Shown here one piece after another: positions 1-15,949 of a stretch of DNA of 37,408 nucleotides. The notes under the pieces were generated by a model. It searched no databases. It was not told the origin of the DNA and saw nothing but the letters and a program-made list of their open reading frames with translations. The first letter of the stretch is position 1. Each line of letters opens with the position of its first letter. The translations under genes and the position numbers were made by a program. The stretch spans positions 1 to 37,408 of the forward strand of contig CAJQNW010000073.1 of the NCBI GenBank assembly GCA_905479765.1, given 5' to 3'. Source of the stretch: an uncultured Tepidamorphus sp. (lineage in GTDB: Bacteria > Pseudomonadota > Alphaproteobacteria > Rhizobiales > Tepidamorphaceae).

Positions 1-2171
1 GCCTCTTCAAGGCTGAGATACGCCCGGCCGACTGCGGCTTCGCCATTTTCGGACACGGACAGAAGCAGCGCCTGATCGGCGAAGCCGGCCAGCAGGTTCG
101 TTTCGTCGTGCCCCGTAACCGAAGGCGCCAGCACGAAAACGACATCGTAGGTCAGCCGCAGCGCTTCGAGGACGGTTTCCATGCGCTCGGAGCCGAGCAA
201 CGCCAACGGATCGTCGGATACATCGCCCGCAGTGATCGTGTGGACGCGCGAGAACCTATCCCGCTGGATGACCTTTTCGAACGGGGCCGCGCCCGCGAGC
301 AGGTCGCTTAGCCCCGGATGCGGCCTTTCGGTCTCGTCGGACGACTCTTCCTCAGGCTCCGCCACCTCGGCCAAAACATCCACGGTATCGAAACAGGCGT
401 CGACGACGACCACGCGGCGGCCAAGTGCGGCGGTCATCCGCGCGATCCGCATGGCGACTTCGTGCTGGTCCTCCAGCTGGCGCACAGCGGTGACAAGAAC
501 GGTGTGAGCGATCTCACCCGAGGACGCCAGGAGGATCCGGTCGCGGATACCGTCCAGTCCAAGCTTGACGGGCTCGAGACTAAACCCGGATGGCTCGCCC
601 GCGTCAGACGACCTATCGTCGGCGGCCCGGTCCGAATCGCGACGGCCGGTGCGGCGCCTGGAGCCTGGGCCTGAACCGGGGCCCGCGCCTGGACCGGTGC
701 CGGGCTTTCCACCGACCGGCGTCGGCAGGTTCGCGTTGACGGGATACTCGCCGACCGACCGGAACAACTCCAATGTAATGACGATGCCGCAACTCAGGAC
801 GATCGAGCCGAAGAGAACGGCGAACAGCGTCGCCAGCGTCTTCGGATAGTAGGGCTCGACGGCCGGCGCGGCGCGTGAGATCAGCCTGGCATCGGCCGGC
901 AGTGCATCGAGGTTTCCGCGCGCCGTCGCATCGCGGTAGCGCGCCAGCAGCGATTCCAGGAGATCGCGTTCGGACTTGGCGTCGCGTTCCAGCGCGCGCA
1001 GTTCGACCTCGCTTTCGTTCGACTGGGCGGCGCGAACCTTCAGCGCATCGATGCTCGCCAGCAGGTCCTGCTCGCGCTCTGCGCCGACGGCGGCGTCGTT
1101 CTCGGCGGCACGGGCGTATTTCACTGCTTCGTCGCGGATCTGCTTGCGCATGTCGCCGAGCTGCGCGGACAACTGCTGCATGCGCGGATGGCGCGGGCCG
1201 AGCGTCGTCGACAGTTCGGCGATCTGCGCGCGCAGGGTTACCTGCTGGGAGACAAGTCCCTGGATCAGCGGCGAATTGAGCACTTCGCTGGACTCAATCG
1301 GCCCGCCGGAGTCGAGCATCTCGCGAATCAAGCGCGCCTTGGCCTGGGCTTCCGACTGCTGGGCGCGGGCGAGCGCCAGTTGCGTCGTCAGTTCGCTGAG
1401 CTGTTGGGAGCTCAGCGTCACCGGCTCGGTGGAACCGCGCAACGTCGAGAACAGGCCATATTTGGTCCGGTAGTCCTCCACCTCGCGCTCGGCCTCGTCG
1501 ACCTTGGTGCGAAGCGTGCCAATCTGGCTCGACAGCCAGTCGCTGGCTTCCAGCGTCGCGTCGCGCTTGGCGGTCTTCTGCATGTCGATGTAGCCATCGG
1601 CGATGGCATTGGCGACACGCGCCGCGACCTGGGGGTTCTCGGAGGAAAACTCGATTGCGATGACACGCGACTGATCGACCTGGAAAACCGAGAGGTTCTC
1701 GTAGTAGCGCGCAAGCACCTTCTCGTCGTTGGTCATGCGGGCGGGATCGCGCGTCACACCGAACAGCGAGAGGACGCGTGCCAGCGCCGAGGCGGAACTG
1801 GCGGGATTGAATTCGGGAAGCTTGTCGAGGCGTTCCTGCGCAATGATCTTGCGGCTGAGGTCGGCCGACAGGATCAGCTGAACCTGGCTGCGGATCGATT
1901 CCTGGTCGAGCAGCGACCTCTCGGTCACATTCGCGGCCGGGCGCGTGTAGGCGGTTTCCTGGTTCTCGACGAGCAACTTCGCGGTGGACCGGTAGAGCGG
2001 CGTCACGCTCGACAGCCACAGGACGGCAAGTCCCGTCGCGATGATGACCGGCAGGACGATCCACAGGCGGGCGTGCCACAGCGCAGCCATCAGCCCGCCT
2101 GCCGAAACGGCTGACGTCGCCTCGCCCCCTGCGGTGGGTGCAAAATCGGTTTGGCGGCTGTGCGACGGCAT
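1..2171 (-). CDS. Wzc/GumC-type polysaccharide chain-length protein with degenerate kinase domain (C-terminus cut by window edge)
   Basis: This frame is open for 723 codons and runs off the left edge, so the ORF track misses it. The only upstream ATG (at 2171) follows GGGGA and an in-frame TGA. It reads as a polysaccharide co-polymerase of the inner membrane, which sets polymer length and couples to a Wza-type exporter. Visible parts are a first membrane helix near residues 30-55, a Wzz-like periplasmic region, a long coiled coil (about 220-420), a proline-rich stretch (PAVEPYYPK) before a second helix near 440-470, then a Gly/Pro linker (PGTGPGAGPGSGPGS). The end resembles a BY-kinase domain: VVVVDACFD sits where Walker A' belongs, and GLSDLLAG and DPLALLGSERM are family-like. 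The Walker A site reads RQLEDQHEVAM with no GKS/T, so ATP use is doubtful. It is divergent from the export lipoprotein gene. The role is inferred; the family call is firm. Confidence 0.9.
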   Translation of the reverse strand, partial: MPSHSRQTDFAPTAGGEATSAVSAGGLMAALWHARLWIVLPVIIATGLAVLWLSSVTPLYRSTAKLLVENQETAYTRPAANVTERSLLDQESIRSQVQLILSADLSRKIIAQERLDKLPEFNPASSASALARVLSLFGVTRDPARMTNDEKVLARYYENLSVFQVDQSRVIAIEFSSENPQVAARVANAIADGYIDMQKTAKRDATLEASDWLSSQIGTLRTKVDEAEREVEDYRTKYGLFSTLRGSTEPVTLSSQQLSELTTQLALARAQQSEAQAKARLIREMLDSGGPIESSEVLNSPLIQGLVSQQVTLRAQIAELSTTLGPRHPRMQQLSAQLGDMRKQIRDEAVKYARAAENDAAVGAEREQDLLASIDALKVRAAQSNESEVELRALERDAKSERDLLESLLARYRDATARGNLDALPADARLISRAAPAVEPYYPKTLATLFAVLFGSIVLSCGIVITLELFRSVGEYPVNANLPTPVGGKPGTGPGAGPGSGPGSRRRTGRRDSDRAADDRSSDAGEPSGFSLEPVKLGLDGIRDRILLASSGEIAHTVLVTAVRQLEDQHEVAMRIARMTAALGRRVVVVDACFDTVDVLAEVAEPEEESSDETERPHPGLSDLLAGAAPFEKVIQRDRFSRVHTITAGDVSDDPLALLGSERMETVLEALRLTYDVVFVLAPSVTGHDETNLLAGFADQALLLSVSENGEAAVGRAYLSLEE

Positions 2172-2350: not shown

Positions 2351-2911
2351 ATGTTGCGCGCGTTCACTGCAGTCCTGTTCATCTGTCTGAGTGCCCTCGC
2401 CAGCTGTGCGAGTCCGCCCAAGGTGGACCAGCGCTTCGTCGAGGCCCTGAATGCCCCGTACCGGCTGGATGCAGGCGACAAACTGCGTATTGTCGTGTTC
2501 GACCAGCCGACGCTGACCAACACCTATTCGGTTGCCGACTCAGGCAGCATCGCCATGCCGCTGATCGGCAGCGTCGCCGCCCGCGGCCTGACAACGCAGC
2601 AACTGGAAGCCGCGGTTACCAACCGACTCAGTCAGGGGTTCTTCCGCAACCCCTCGGTGTCCGTCCAGGTCGACACGTACCGGCCGTTCTTCATCCTCGG
2701 TGAAGTCGGCGCGCCCGGCCAGTATCCCTATGTCGCCGGATTGACGGCCCGCAACGCCATCGCCATCGGCGGCGGTTTCACACCACGCGCGACGCAGACG
2801 ATGGTGCAGGTTTCCCGCAACTACAACGGAACGATCGTCGAGGCCCGTGTCCCGATCGATCATCCGATTCGGCCGGGCGACACCATCTACGTTCTCGAGC
2901 GCTGGTTCTGA
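2351..2911 (+). CDS. Short Wza/ExoF-like polysaccharide export lipoprotein
   Basis: This is a 186-aa protein beginning with a lipoprotein signal peptide (MLRAFTAVLFICLSALASC) and a lipobox Cys at residue 19. The signal peptide is why the ATG at 2351 is preferred over the 27-residue longer ORF-track start. The Poly_export domain follows (YRLDAGDKLRIVVFDQP, then GSIAMPLIG), and then an SLBB-like beta-grasp segment (FFILGEVGAPGQYPY) ending in the typical RPGDTIYVLERWF. It is about half the length of E. coli Wza and lacks the region that forms the outer-membrane helical barrel. It may therefore act as the periplasmic part of an export channel with another partner. The glycosyltransferase gene starts 11 nt downstream, which suggests an operon. 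Confidence 0.9.
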   Translation: MLRAFTAVLFICLSALASCASPPKVDQRFVEALNAPYRLDAGDKLRIVVFDQPTLTNTYSVADSGSIAMPLIGSVAARGLTTQQLEAAVTNRLSQGFFRNPSVSVQVDTYRPFFILGEVGAPGQYPYVAGLTARNAIAIGGGFTPRATQTMVQVSRNYNGTIVEARVPIDHPIRPGDTIYVLERWF

Positions 2912-2922
2912 GCCGGCCCGCC

Positions 2923-4053
2923 ATGTCGAACGAACCGCTGAGGATCGTTCATTGCCTCCGCGCCCCGGTCGGCGGACTGTTTCGTCATGTTTGCGACCTG
3001 GCTGAAGCGCAGGCGAACCAGGGCCACCTGATCGGCCTGATTGCCGATTCGAGCACCGGCGGAGACGCGGCGACGGCGCGGCTGGAACGCCTGGCGCCAC
3101 TTTGCCGTCTCGGGATCGAGCGGTTTGCCATGTCGCGAGTGCCGGGACCGGGCGACTTGATGGCCGCAGCGCGAATCGGCCGCCTGGCGGGCGACTGGAA
3201 GCCCGATGTCCTGCATGGCCACGGGGCCAAGGGCGGCGCCTATGCCCGGATTGCCGGCACGCGGCTGCGCGGTAGCGGATACGTCCCGGTTCGCGCCTAC
3301 ACGCCGCATGGCGGCAGCCTGCACTATGCCAAATCGTCTCCGGCGGGCTTCCTGTTCCTGTCCATGGAGAGGTTCCTGGCCCGGCGCACCGACGTATTCC
3401 TGTTCGAAAGCGCCTTCGGCTTGCGCGCTTTCACAGACAAGGTCTGTGCCCCCAAGGGCATCGTCCGTGTCGTTCACAACGGACTGGCGGAAGAAGAATT
3501 CGTCGCGGCTATTCCACTACCAGACGCAGCCGATTTCTTGTTCGTCGGTGAACTGCGGTCATTGAAGGGCATCGATACGCTGCTCGAGGCGCTCCGCCGG
3601 ATCGATGCCCGCCCCGAAGGCCCGTCGGCGGTGATCGTCGGCGCCGGGGCAGACCGCGACCGGCTTGTCGCCATGACACGCGACCTAGGGCTGGAAAGCC
3701 GCGTGCGGTTTCCAGGCGCGATGCCGGCGCGGGAGGCGTTTGCGCTGGGCCGCTGCATCGTCGTGCCGTCCAGGGCAGAGTCGCTGCCCTATGTCGTCCT
3801 GGAAGCGGCAGCCGCGCGATTGCCGATCGTGGCCACCGATGTCGGCGGCATTCCGGAGATATTCGGCGAGCAGGCGGGGCGGCTGGTCAAGCCCGGCGAC
3901 GCCGCCGGACTGGCCGGGGCGATGCAGCGAATCCTATCCAGTCCCGAAGCAGCGCACGAACAGGCCGCCGCGCTGGCCGACGACGTCGCGCAACGGTTTT
4001 CGCTTCAGGGCATGGCGGACGCGGTTCTCGACGCCTACAAGGCCGCGCCTTGA
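2923..4053 (+). CDS. Family 4 (GT-B) glycosyltransferase
   Basis: This 376-aa cytoplasmic retaining glycosyltransferase has a GT-B fold. The N-terminal acceptor domain opens with RIVHCLRAPVGGLFRHV, and the C-terminal Glycos_transf_1 domain starts at about residue 205 (FLFVGELRSLKGIDTLLEAL). The GT4 EX7E motif is seen in ESLPYVVLE, followed by PIVATDVGGIPEIF. It probably adds a sugar to the lipid-linked repeat unit of the polysaccharide; donor and acceptor cannot be read from the sequence. It lies 11 nt after the export lipoprotein gene and about 100 nt before the initiating transferase, so the first two genes are likely co-transcribed. The gap after it holds no recognisable gene. Confidence 0.92.
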   Translation: MSNEPLRIVHCLRAPVGGLFRHVCDLAEAQANQGHLIGLIADSSTGGDAATARLERLAPLCRLGIERFAMSRVPGPGDLMAAARIGRLAGDWKPDVLHGHGAKGGAYARIAGTRLRGSGYVPVRAYTPHGGSLHYAKSSPAGFLFLSMERFLARRTDVFLFESAFGLRAFTDKVCAPKGIVRVVHNGLAEEEFVAAIPLPDAADFLFVGELRSLKGIDTLLEALRRIDARPEGPSAVIVGAGADRDRLVAMTRDLGLESRVRFPGAMPAREAFALGRCIVVPSRAESLPYVVLEAAAARLPIVATDVGGIPEIFGEQAGRLVKPGDAAGLAGAMQRILSSPEAAHEQAAALADDVAQRFSLQGMADAVLDAYKAAP

Positions 4054-4153: not shown

Positions 4154-5743
4154 ATGAGTTCTTCGAATCCCACACCGATAGGCGACTCCGCAGGCCCGGA
4201 GTCGGAGCCCGATGTCAGCCGAATGAAGGCAGCCGCTGTGGCATCGGCCGGCGCCATGAAACGCCCGAACTTCGGTCCCGCTCCCGCTCCGCTTGGCCCG
4301 GAAGCGTTGCGATTCGCCGACGAGCATGCCGATAAGGCGATTTCCTCGATCGTCGTCGGCGGCTTCGCGCGACTTGCTGAATTCCTCCTGATCACGCTGG
4401 TCGGCTTCGCCACTCAGCTCATCTACGTCTATCCGGCTGAAGGCATGCCTGCGCTTTACCCGGTAGCGATTCTGCTGGGTGCCGGATTGTCGATCGTGGG
4501 TTTCCAGGCGATGGACATCTATACCCCGCACGCCTTGAGGACCTTCGTTCGGCAGAACAGCAAGCTGCTGGTGGCCTGGGTGGCGGTTTTCGCCTTCCTG
4601 TCGCTGATCGCGTTTTTCTTCAAGGTCGGGGATTCCTTCTCGCGGGTCTGGCTGGGCCTGTGGTTCTCGCTCGGCCTTCTGGCGCTGGTGCTGTTCCGCA
4701 TCGGCCTGGCCTTCCTCGTTCGCCACTGGTCGCGCACCGGACGGCTGGAACGGCGCGCGGTGATCGTCGGTGGCGGCGAACCGGCCGCCGAATTGATCGA
4801 GGCGCTGCAGGCCTCGCCGGATTCCGACATCCGCATCTGCGGCGTCTTCGACGACCGAAGCGACGATCGCTCGCCGCCGATCGTGGCCGGCTACCCGAAG
4901 CTCGGCACCGTTGGCCAGCTTGTCGACTTCGCGCGGCGCACCCGTGTCGACCTGTTGATCGTGTCACTGCCCATCAGCGCGGAGACTCGCGTCCTCGACA
5001 TGGTGAAGACGTTGTGGGTGTTGCCGGTGGACATCCGGCTCAGCGCGCACACCAACAAGCTGAGATTCAGGCCGCGCTCCTACTCCTATATCGGCAACGT
5101 TCCGTTCATTGACGTGTTCGACAAGCCGATTGCGGATTGGGACTACGTCCTGAAATGGCTGTTCGATCATGTGCTCGGCGCGCTGCTGCTGATCGCAGCG
5201 CTGCCGCTCATGGCGCTCGTGGCGCTCGCCATCAAGATCGACAGCCGCGGCCCGGTGCTGTTCCGGCAAAAACGCTACGGCTTCAACAACGAGCTGATCG
5301 AAGTCTTCAAGTTCCGCTCGATGTATACCGACCAATGCGACCCGAGCGCCGTCAAGCTCGTCAGCAAGGACGATCCGCGTGTCACCCGGGTCGGGCGCAT
5401 CATCCGCAAGACCAGCCTCGACGAACTGCCGCAGCTCTTCAATGTCGTGCGCAGCGAGTTGTCGCTCGTCGGGCCCCGGCCGCACGCCCTGCACGCAAAG
5501 GCCGCCGACAAGCTCTACGATGCCGTCGTAGACAGCTATTTCGCCCGCCACCGCGTGAAGCCGGGCATCACCGGCTGGGCGCAGATCAACGGCTGGCGTG
5601 GCGAGACCGACACGCCGGAAAAGATCCAGCGGCGTGTCGAGTACGACCTCTACTACATCGAGAACTGGTCGGTGCTGTTCGACCTCTACATCCTGCTCAT
5701 GACGCCCTACTCGCTGCTGACCAAGAAGGAAGGGGCGTATTGA
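4154..5743 (+). CDS. Undecaprenyl-phosphate sugar phosphotransferase (WcaJ/ExoY-type initiating enzyme)
   Basis: This 529-aa polytopic enzyme should transfer a sugar-1-phosphate from a nucleotide sugar to undecaprenyl phosphate, the first step of repeat-unit assembly. After a disordered N-terminus of about 50 residues come roughly four membrane helices. A nucleotide-binding-like CoA_binding_3 domain follows ([19 protein letters not shown], about 195-300). Another hydrophobic helix near 335-355 leads into the catalytic bacterial sugar transferase domain, with [35 protein letters not shown] and [13 protein letters not shown]. These are the hallmark motifs of the polyisoprenyl-phosphate hexose-1-phosphate transferase family. 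The sugar is unknown; glucose or galactose is usual for relatives. The next gene probably starts within its stop codon, implying translational coupling. Confidence 0.95.
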
Positions 5744-7041
5744 CCTCCGCGGCCGGCCATATGCCGCCGGTCGCGTCGGCTCAGGCGGAGGAACACTGGA
5801 GCCGGCTCGACAAACGGCTGGTGCGTCCGCTGCTGTGGGGCACCGTCATGGCGGGCTGCCTCGTCACCTTCGAACCGTCGCCCTACGAGCTGATGTTCCT
5901 GTTCCTGTGCTGGGGCGTGTTCGTTCGCGGGGTCAGTTTTCCGCGGTTCCTGGCGCCGGCATTCCTGTTCCTGACCGTGATGTTCACGGTCGGCGGTGTC
6001 TCATCCGTGCTGCAGGTCGCCCAGGAATCCGACTCGGTGCGGTACGTGGTGATCTCCATGTACCTGACGATCACCACGATCGTCTTTGCCACGCTGGTAA
6101 GCGAGGACCCGCTGGACCGCCTGAAGATCATCCGCAGCGCCTATATCGTCGGCGCGGTCATCGCGGCGACGGCCGGTATCGCCGGATACTTCGACATCGG
6201 CGGCACGCGGGACCTGTTCACGCTCTACAACCGGTCACGCGGCACGTTCAAGGATCCGAACGTCTATGGCCCCTTCCTGGTTTTCCCGGGATTGCTGCTG
6301 GTGCAGGACCTTCTGACGCGACATGGGGCCCGGCTCATCGCCTCCGCGCTGCCGCTCGGTGTCATCCTGATCGGCCTGCTGCTGTCGTTTTCGCGCGCGG
6401 CCTGGGGGCATTTCATCATCTCGACGCTGATCATGGCAGCGCTGATGTTCCTGTTCTCGCCGAGCCGGCGCCTGCGGGTGCGGATGGGGATCGGGGTTTT
6501 GGGGGGCGGGATGATCTTCGCAGGCCTGATCGTCGCCATTCTGGCGGTGCCGCAGGTCGGCAACGTGTTCAAGGAACGCGCGGACCTGAACCAGAGCTAC
6601 GATGTCGGGGAAACCGGCCGGTTCGCCACACAAGCGCGGTCCTTGCCGGACGTCATCGACAATCCTCTGGGACTGGGCCCGCTGCAGTATTCCAAGCGCT
6701 ACGGACAGGATCCCCACAACGTCTATCTGAACGCGTTCGCGTCCTACGGCTGGTTCGGCGCGTTCGGCTACATCACTTTCGTGATCCTGACCTGGATCGT
6801 CGGCATCCGTTTCGCGTTCGTGCGAACGCCCTGGCAGAACTACCACTTCGCTGCGCTGGCGACGTTCCTTCCGCTGTCACTGGAAGGTTTCATCATCGAC
6901 ACTGATCACTGGCGCCATTTCTACCTGATTGCCGGTCTTCTATGGGGCATGTCGGCGGCCGCCGTGCACTATCAGCCGCCGCTGTCGCGCCGCCAGGTGC
7001 CACCCCGCGTGAAGCCCGGCTACTTGCGCGCCGCGATGTAG
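5740..7041 (+). CDS. Wzy/O-antigen-ligase-like membrane protein
   Basis: This is a 433-aa protein with about 10-12 membrane helices and a Wzy_C (O-antigen ligase/polymerase) core: NRSRGTFKDPNVYGPFLVFP, then LLSFSRAAWGHF, a soluble loop, and GLGPLQYSKRYGQDPHNVYL. The DPHNVYLN-type motif is typical of the periplasmic loop of this family. The likely job is periplasmic polymerisation of polysaccharide repeats. I chose the TTG at 5740: it overlaps the upstream stop (TATTGA) and lies 6 nt after a strong AAGGAAGGGG ribosome site. The ATG at 5761 has no such site. The ORF-track start at 5137 lies deep inside the previous gene in another frame and is spurious. Its 3' end overlaps the convergent methyltransferase gene by 22 bp. 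Confidence 0.88.
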   Translation: MTSAAGHMPPVASAQAEEHWSRLDKRLVRPLLWGTVMAGCLVTFEPSPYELMFLFLCWGVFVRGVSFPRFLAPAFLFLTVMFTVGGVSSVLQVAQESDSVRYVVISMYLTITTIVFATLVSEDPLDRLKIIRSAYIVGAVIAATAGIAGYFDIGGTRDLFTLYNRSRGTFKDPNVYGPFLVFPGLLLVQDLLTRHGARLIASALPLGVILIGLLLSFSRAAWGHFIISTLIMAALMFLFSPSRRLRVRMGIGVLGGGMIFAGLIVAILAVPQVGNVFKERADLNQSYDVGETGRFATQARSLPDVIDNPLGLGPLQYSKRYGQDPHNVYLNAFASYGWFGAFGYITFVILTWIVGIRFAFVRTPWQNYHFAALATFLPLSLEGFIIDTDHWRHFYLIAGLLWGMSAAAVHYQPPLSRRQVPPRVKPGYLRAAM

Positions 7042-7835
7042 GCGTAGCTGGTCAGGAACCGCCAGTCGCGGGCCGCCGCGACGCGGTTGGCGAGATTGTC
7101 GATCTCGCGGACGACCGGAATTTTCTCGAAATAGTCGTGATAGTAGAACGGCACCACGATCGCCTCGCGGAACCCGACGCTTTCCAGCATGGGCTTCAGC
7201 TTCTTTTCGCTGCCGTAGGTCCAGTCGTAATGGGCCGGGAACTTCGGATCCTCATCGTCGGTGCGGTGCGGGTAAAGCATCTTGACGATCTTCTGCGACA
7301 CGGCCTCCGGGATCACGATGTTGGCGAGATAGGGCAGCGCGTAGAGCGTCGGCACGAAGGCGATGGCGACACCGCCGGGCGCCAGGATCTCGTTCAGGTT
7401 CCGCCAGGCGCGCCGGCCGTCCTTCACGTGCTCGAAGACCATGCGCGAGAAGGCCAGGTCGTACGCCCCGCGCTTGACCTTCGTCTCGGCCAGGTTGCCG
7501 GAGATATCGAAGCAGGCCTTGGAGAACTCCACCGGGCCGGCGTCCAGCTCTTCCTGGGAGATGTCGTTGATGGTCAGTTCGATATCGAGCGCGGCCGCCT
7601 CGTAGGGCGTGAACAGCGGATCGCGGCCGCCGCCGATCTCGATCAGCCGGCGCAGGCCGAAACCACGCGACAACGCCTCGATGGTCGGCTTGTAGTTGTC
7701 CCAGGCCCATTGCGAGCGGACGTCCGGGTCAAGGCGGGCGAAGAAGGCGTCGAGCGAACTGTCGCTGCTCATGGCGCGGCTTTTGGCGTCGCGTTCCGTC
7801 CGCGCCGACTTGGCCATGGGTTCCACATGCGTCAT
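7020..7835 (-). CDS. Class I SAM-dependent methyltransferase
   Basis: This 271-aa protein has a Methyltransf_11-like Rossmann core. The SAM-binding motif I is LRRLIEIGGGRDPLF near residue 85, followed by an acidic strand end (LTINDIS). The motif IV/post-IV region reads YDLAFSRMVFEHVKDGRRAW, then ILAPGGVAIAFVPTLYALPY. The substrate is unknown; the position suggests a sugar or lipid-linked glycan of the exopolysaccharide. The start is supported by AAGGA 8 nt upstream of the ATG. It is convergent with the polymerase gene and overlaps it by 22 bp. It is transcribed from its own 160-bp upstream region next to the tRNA, so it may be regulated separately from the EPS genes. Confidence 0.88.
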   Translation of the reverse strand: MTHVEPMAKSARTERDAKSRAMSSDSSLDAFFARLDPDVRSQWAWDNYKPTIEALSRGFGLRRLIEIGGGRDPLFTPYEAAALDIELTINDISQEELDAGPVEFSKACFDISGNLAETKVKRGAYDLAFSRMVFEHVKDGRRAWRNLNEILAPGGVAIAFVPTLYALPYLANIVIPEAVSQKIVKMLYPHRTDDEDPKFPAHYDWTYGSEKKLKPMLESVGFREAIVVPFYYHDYFEKIPVVREIDNLANRVAAARDWRFLTSYAYIAARK

Positions 7836-7996
7836 GGTTCGGTTCCTTGCTCGGGAGCCTGCAGAAGGCTGAACCCTAGGTTCCTACACCAAAACCACCT
7901 AACAGATTGCAAACGCTTGGTTAATTGCCCCGTGGCCGAACCGCTCGCCACGATGCCTTCGTTCAAAGGCGAATTGCGGGGTATGAGAAAAGCGAA

Positions 7997-8074
7997 TGGT
8001 CGGAGCGGGGAGATTTGAACTCCCGACCCCTTGTCCCCCAGACAAGTGCGCTAACCGGGCTGCGCCACGCTCCG
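7997..8074 (-). tRNA. tRNA-Pro (anticodon GGG), CCA encoded
   Basis: The minus strand folds as a complete cloverleaf. The acceptor stem is CGGAGCG/CGCTCCG, the D arm is GCGC...GCGC, and the anticodon stem-loop is CTTGT-CTGGGGG-ACAAG with anticodon GGG. The T arm is GGGAG-TTCAAAT-CTCCC. A discriminator A and an encoded CCA follow the acceptor stem (ACCA, read from 8000 to 7997). The 3' end points toward the exopolysaccharide locus. Confidence 0.97.
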
Positions 8075-10855: not shown

Positions 10856-11916
10856 GAGTCGACTACCTCGGCGGTTTCCGGTGCGACATCGGCCTTGCTG
10901 CTTTGATAATGGCCGACGCCGTCTTCGATCTTTTTCATAAGCCCGTTGCGGGACAGGTGATAGCCGAGCGCGACTGCTGCGGAATATCCTTCCGCGTCGG
11001 TTCCGCCGTGGCTCTTGATTACCATGCCGTTGAGGCCAAGGAAGACCCCGCCGTTCGATTTACGCGGGTCCATCTTCTCGCGCAGCGTGTCGAAGGCGGC
11101 CTTTGCGAACAGGAACCCGATCCGGCTGAGCAGGCTGCGGCGCATGCCCTGGCGCAGATACTGGGCAATCTGCTTGGCGGTGCCTTCGGCGGTCTTCAAG
11201 GCGATGTTGCCGGTGAAGCCCTCGCAGACCACGACGTCGACCGTGCCCTGGCCGATGTCGTCGCCCTCGATGAAACCGGCATAGTTGATCGGGAGCGATC
11301 CCTCACGGAGGATCTGGCCGGCAGCGCGGATGTATTCGAGGCCCTTGACCTCCTCGACGCCGATGTTGAGCAGGCCGACGGACGGGCGCGGGATTCCAAA
11401 CAGCGCGCGCGCCATCGCCTCGCCCATCACCGAGAAACCGACGAGCTGCTCGGCATCCGATCCGATGGTCGCACCGACATCGAGGACGATGCTCTCGCCG
11501 CGCAGCGTCGGCCAGATGGCTGCCAGCGCGGGCCGCTCGATCCCGGCCATCATCCTCAGGCAAAGCTTGGACATCGCCATCAGCGCGCCGGTGTTGCCCG
11601 CCGACACGGCAATATCGGCACGACCGGTCTTCACCGCGTCGAGCGACAGCCACATGCTGGACTTGCGGCGACCGTAGCGCAACGCCTGGCTCGGCTTGTC
11701 GTCCATGCGAACGGAGACGTCGGTGTGTTCGACCGTAGAGACGGCCGCCAGCGCGGGAAGATCCTCGAGAATCGGACGGATGAGCGTCTCGTCGCCGAAG
11801 AACAGGAATTCGCTGTCGGGATAGCGCTCGCGCGCCAGAGCACAGCCTGGAATGACTACTGACGGACCGAAGTCACCGCCCATCGCGTCAATCGAAATGC
11901 GTATTGGAGAGACCAT
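10852..11916 (-). CDS. plsX: Phosphate acyltransferase
   Basis: This 354-aa peripheral membrane enzyme converts acyl-ACP to acyl-phosphate, the donor for PlsY in phosphatidate synthesis. Recognisable family motifs are [19 protein letters not shown] at the N-terminus, [18 protein letters not shown] and [10 protein letters not shown] in the middle, then [20 protein letters not shown]. The ATG at 11916 has a poor ribosome site, but the first family residues follow closely, so the start is probably right. It overlaps fabH by 4 nt and follows the DUF177 gene after 137 nt. In many bacteria rpmF lies between DUF177 and plsX, but no rpmF is seen here. Confidence 0.97.

Positions 11917-13825: not shown

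Positions 13826-15949
<2,124 letters not shown>

Follow-up and report, generated by a model that had tools for sequence, protein, structure and literature searches.

The first gene in the window (the whole 37,408-nucleotide stretch of DNA that we analysed) encodes a membrane protein, a Wzz/GNVR co-polymerase that carries a C-terminal BY-kinase fold. We assign a probability of roughly 80% to the reading that this protein is a PCP-2 of a Wzx/Wzy-type pathway whose kinase-like domain is an obligate pseudokinase, acting as a phosphorylation-independent scaffold. An earlier note on this DNA had suggested that a pseudokinase is kept inside the co-polymerase, and this agrees with the motif counts, the tree, the conserved gene order, the predicted structure, and the signs of purifying selection.

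The source genome assembly is 5.0 Mb in 521 contigs and is 85% complete, and the window opens at a contig end. The co-polymerase ORF has 723 codons and is open at that end, without a stop codon; about 35 C-terminal residues lie past it. The C-terminal tail is thus off the contig, and its features are taken from relatives. The match to TIGR01005 spans most of the protein (295 bits, below the cut-off of 411.7). Membership in PCP-2 (the Wzz/Wzc superfamily) is indicated by the N-terminal Wzz domain and by the Wza and Wzy-like neighbours, and the protein probably helps to set the length of a surface polysaccharide. The features of this gene are:

3..2171, minus strand: PCP-2 polysaccharide co-polymerase with a C-terminal BY-pseudokinase domain (Wzz PF02706, 3.9e-8; TIGR01005, 9.5e-88)
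1836..2093, minus strand: Wzz domain, residues 27-112 (Pfam PF02706, over the cut-off)
774..995, minus strand: GNVR-like segment ahead of the second membrane helix, residues 393-466 (PF13807, 17 bits, below the cut-off of 27.7)
3..578, minus strand: BY-kinase-fold pseudokinase domain, about residues 532-723, with its C-terminus cut
450..482, minus strand: lost Walker A site, RQLEDQHEVAM (from an alignment of 95 homologs)
387..413, minus strand: what remains of Walker A', VVVVDACFD (the first Asp is there, but the second acidic residue is not)
120..143, minus strand: Walker B site, VVFVLAPS (Leu in place of the acidic residue)

Homology to BY-kinases extends across the whole C-terminal domain, as seen both by comparing a profile to the PDB and by comparing predicted structures. 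TIGR01007 matches residues 542-708 only below its cut-off (3.2e-14, 53 bits vs. 108). When a domain profile built from 24 relatives was compared to the PDB, BY-kinases ranked first (1e-28 to 1e-16): the matches were BceF (9.7e-29), VpsO, Etk, CapAB, and Wzc, followed by MinD/ParA proteins. For the domain from L004, which is the nearest complete relative, AlphaFold2 gave a model with a pLDDT of 87 and a pTM of 0.84, which is poorly defined at the termini and in an insert near residues 61-80 but nowhere else. Foldseek with this model found Wzc (3la6, E = 7.6e-12), with VpsO, CapAB, and Etk also among the top matches. The earlier note had proposed a comparison with Wzc, ExoP, and CapB structures, and both searches match Wzc, CapAB, and their kin. 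A chance likeness to kinases is ruled out by the profile and fold searches. The conserved residues away from the active site include PGL.DLL.G and RD..SR.H.I..G.

Although the fold is kept, the catalytic motifs are not. The strings that the earlier note quoted (GLSDLLAG, DPLALLGSERM, VVVVDACFD, RQLEDQHEVAM, and VVFVLAPS) are all present in the ORF, and its reading of two of them holds. The P-loop site has no GK[ST]: when 95 homologs are aligned, AVR--QLEDQHE of the window protein lies opposite P-GEGKST of the paralogs. The Walker B-like strand lacks its acidic end, with leucine instead. We counted motifs in the 58 aligned rows of the window's clade and in the 37 rows of paralogs. Walker A, as judged by alignment column, is found in 0/58 clade members and 23/37 paralogs. 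The Walker B aspartate is present in 26/58 vs. 34/37, the DxD of A' in 11/58 vs. 30/37, and the first A' aspartate in 52/58 vs. 35/37. A tail with at least 3 tyrosines occurs in 15/37 paralogs and in none of the 58 clade members; no tyrosine cluster was seen in any clade tail that we inspected (the window's own tail lies beyond the contig). The EX2RX2R motif is absent from the window protein, but because a simple pattern for it matches only 9/37 paralogs (and 3/58 clade members), its absence discriminates poorly. The window protein shares its domain architecture and fold with Wzc, Etk, VpsO, and ExoP, which are PCP-2a proteins with an active BY-kinase. In contrast to these active kinases, it lacks Walker A, the Walker B acid, and the DxD of A', and its relatives lack the tyrosine tail. 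The window's domain is therefore predicted not to bind nucleotides. Because the first A' aspartate is kept in 52/58 clade members and the Walker B aspartate in about half, some residual ligand binding may remain within the clade.

To place these losses, we built a tree from the membrane and periplasmic part alone (residues 27-475), so that the columns of the trait itself were excluded. This was a quick search, and the midpoint root is for drawing only. The tree separates 46 order-wide rows, none of which have Walker A, from 37 rows, of which 23 have it (SH-aLRT 98). Among the best class-wide matches to the domain from outside the order, most have GEGK[ST] and tyrosine-rich tails, and so does the homolog from Azospirillum lipoferum. 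The best explanation is that the change from a BY-kinase domain to an obligate pseudokinase took place in an ancestor of the order-wide clade, as judged from these sequences. In the other half of the tree, Walker A was apparently lost several more times, in ExoP-like paralogs from the same order (L128, L137, L127, L136, L145, L146, L148, L152, and others).

Could a sequencing error or a frameshift conceal a normal kinase? The contig does belong to a fragmented, 85%-complete assembly, and the earlier note had raised the possibility of a hidden GKT motif. However, the frame is open, with neither a stop nor a change of frame in the gene. Also, the motif is missing from the homologs in L004 (73% identity) and L005 (59% identity), which are from the same genus, and the loss is seen in independent genomes from the genus, the family, and the order alike. 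Because same-genus relatives with complete genes miss the identical motifs, we reject the frameshift, whose probability seems negligible. A decaying relic that is devoid of function is a less remote idea, but still an unlikely one. The domain is the fastest-changing folded part of the protein (63% identity with L004, vs. 82% in the periplasmic part), and the P-loop region is hypervariable among relatives. On the other hand, the domain is under purifying selection, albeit weaker than on the periplasmic part: dN/dS is 0.25-0.51 in the domain and 0.15-0.32 in the periplasmic part, with dS near saturation in some comparisons. The full predicted fold, the conservation of residues away from the active site, the retention of the domain across distant families, and the nearly fixed C-terminus also argue against a relic.

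BY pseudokinases have been proposed to be scaffolds that steer PCP assembly by binding, free of phosphorylation (PMC12004946). By analogy, a scaffold is the most likely role for the window's domain. The domain would keep the kinase fold but would not undergo ATP-driven autophosphorylation of a tyrosine tail; instead, it would hold or free PCP subunits through protein contacts, and the same contacts would hold or free the Wza, Wzy, and PGT partners. Alternatively, the pseudokinase might act with a separate active BY-kinase, which the earlier note had also considered, either by forming a heteromer with it or by being its substrate. A stand-alone BY-kinase with an intact P-loop (AGCGKS) is indeed encoded in the genome (L033; G000 contig C371, 1324-2100), so that part stands. 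Cooperation is the weaker part: the kinase gene is on another contig, unlinked to the window's cluster, and adjoins its own PCP. Furthermore, the tails of the relatives offer no tyrosine cluster to phosphorylate, and for EPS of Myxococcus xanthus, the pseudokinase was argued to be independent of active BYKs (PMC12004946). We consider a joint system to be quite improbable. The genome thereby has a further PCP system, which is split into the apparently active BY-kinase on C371 and its separate PCP.

The phosphorylation-independent scaffold has precedents, some of them close. The ortholog from Sinorhizobium meliloti Ak57 (LZK74_22825; CP090106.1, L278) is 34% identical to the window protein. As in the window, its neighbours are divergent Wza-GT4-PGT-Wzy genes, and it adjoins COX15-argC-rpsI-rplM. 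It keeps a remnant of the P-loop (PGGDEGSTA), and the protein ends in FPDRRAA. (CP090106.1 is labelled as the 3.7 Mb pSymB of S. meliloti, yet it carries rpsI, rplM, COX15, and argC, and is probably a mislabelled chromosome.) This argC is presumably SMc01801, and counting from it leads to SMc01795. LZK74_22825 should then be SMc01795, a name that is assigned by position only. SMc01795 was described as a PCP-2 and a BY pseudokinase in one polypeptide, and further fused PCP-2/BY-pseudokinases are Mlr8439, BCETI_6000729, and VV1_2305 (PMC12004946, after Cuthbertson et al. 2009). Because the position of the ortholog corresponds to that of SMc01795, which is named in PMC12004946, the window protein belongs to a recognised kind. 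Both are single-chain Wzz/PCP proteins with a C-terminal BY-kinase fold and without Walker motifs (for the window protein, loss of the tyrosine tail is judged from relatives), and we see no fundamental difference between them; the P-loop is erased in the window, as compared to the remnant in S. meliloti. In other words, fused PCP/pseudokinases were already described and, by its sequence, the window protein is another member.

In EcpK/EpsV from M. xanthus and HfsB/HfsA from Caulobacter crescentus, a PCP-2 is likewise combined with a BY fold that lacks the Walker motifs and the tyrosine tail and is a proposed scaffold, but in both of these the pseudokinase is a protein of its own, not fused to the PCP. 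PssP2 from Rhizobium leguminosarum is a rhizobial PCP that is kinase-like but reportedly neither has the specific motifs nor is phosphorylated (PMC4182512). It differs in its length (586 amino acids) and in its location in the Pss-II region, and we liken it to the window protein by description only. Fused pseudokinase co-polymerases were previously mentioned as single examples; they now form an order-wide orthologous group in the Hyphomicrobiales, with conserved neighbours. Therefore, PCP cycling without phosphorylation should be testable in S. meliloti or Bradyrhizobium. Also, annotations of such proteins as "exopolysaccharide transport" or "tyrosine autokinase" do not imply kinase activity.

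The proteins of the clade tend to end in two alanines (AA), for instance at these sites:

L004, 3760-3765: AA end in the nearest complete relative
L278, near 11119-11124: AA end in S. meliloti Ak57
L213-L277: loci with further examples, clade-wide

We found the AA end in 81 of 105 distinct clade proteins and in 39 of 57 clade representatives (below 55% identity to each other). Among the other long ORFs at related loci, 14 of 291 have it (Fisher p = 5e-26 vs. the representatives, which ignores their remaining relatedness and uses background ORFs that were picked mechanically). Among the paralogs in the tree, 2/37 have it, and none of the 23 with Walker A do. The same-genus protein from L005 ends in VA. 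In the 57 representatives, the final two positions have alanine at frequencies of 0.88 and 0.77, but the frequency falls to 0.26 at the third position from the end and to 0.07-0.21 deeper in the protein, and it is 0.15 overall, which rules out a general richness in alanine as the cause. A cause at the nucleotide level is unlikely, as all four alanine codons and all three stop codons occur. The 10-20 residues ahead of the AA end vary, and the structural model shows the end as disordered.

ClpX needs the C-terminal AA of the ssrA tag and of CtrA from Caulobacter, and FtsH also takes nonpolar C-termini. The tmRNA of the source genome encodes the tag ANDNYAPVAQAA, which likewise ends in AA. Because AA matches the end that ClpX requires, and because FtsH takes nonpolar C-termini, a degron is plausible. 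We tentatively speculate that the clade exchanged its tyrosine tail for an Ala-Ala degron, so that assembly would be controlled by proteolysis by ClpXP or FtsH and not by phosphorylation; this seems doubtful, and a motif that binds some other partner would be indistinguishable from it. Our literature search found no paper that links fused pseudokinase co-polymerases to a C-terminal degron. The new part is the AA end in place of the lost tyrosine tail, with a possible function as a degron, and it offers a specific idea, cheap to test, of what took the place of tyrosine phosphorylation.

The genes beside the co-polymerase are consistent with a Wzx/Wzy-type pathway:

2351..2911, plus strand: Wza/OPX-type polysaccharide export protein, the divergent neighbour (PF02563, 1.8e-23; conserved synteny)
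2923..4053, plus strand: GT4 glycosyltransferase (domain match; conserved synteny)
4154..5743, plus strand: initiating polyprenyl-phosphate sugar-phosphate transferase (PGT), UppE/HfsE type by gene content (PF02397, 8e-63; PF13727)
5740..7041, plus strand: Wzy-like polymerase/O-antigen ligase family protein (PF04932, 1.2e-11)
7020..7835, minus strand: methyltransferase, tied to the cluster in near relatives only

Across 38 loci, the co-polymerase is divergent from the GT4, PGT, and Wzy-like genes in nearly all cases, and Wza lies between them in most; an adjacent Wza was not detectable at some of the Bradyrhizobium-type loci. In a near relative (L170), a polysaccharide deacetylase (7011-8063) lies 3' of the co-polymerase. 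Its start sequence recurs in L169 (about 14700-15692) and L171 (13049-14107), and a deacetylase is probably located just past the window's left end. In G001, a COX15/CtaA gene is downstream of the co-polymerase. Polysaccharide deacetylases are also known from holdfast modification.

UPP clusters contain uppC, for a protein of the Wza type, and uppE, for an initiating transferase of the WbaP type (PMC12727192). When compared by type only, the window's genes fit the UPP core (uppC/Wza, uppE/PGT, and a GT), with the Wzy-like gene as an extra. This gene content makes a polar adhesin of the UPP/holdfast class a possible product. Other proteins of the cluster have characteristic ends as well: nearly all orthologs of Wza (the window gene ends at 2911) have WF, FF, or LF at the C-terminus, and the PGT (gene end 5743) and its orthologs have a fixed AY. 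Beyond the methyltransferase, the window contains a tRNA-Pro (GGG) at 7997-8074 on the minus strand.
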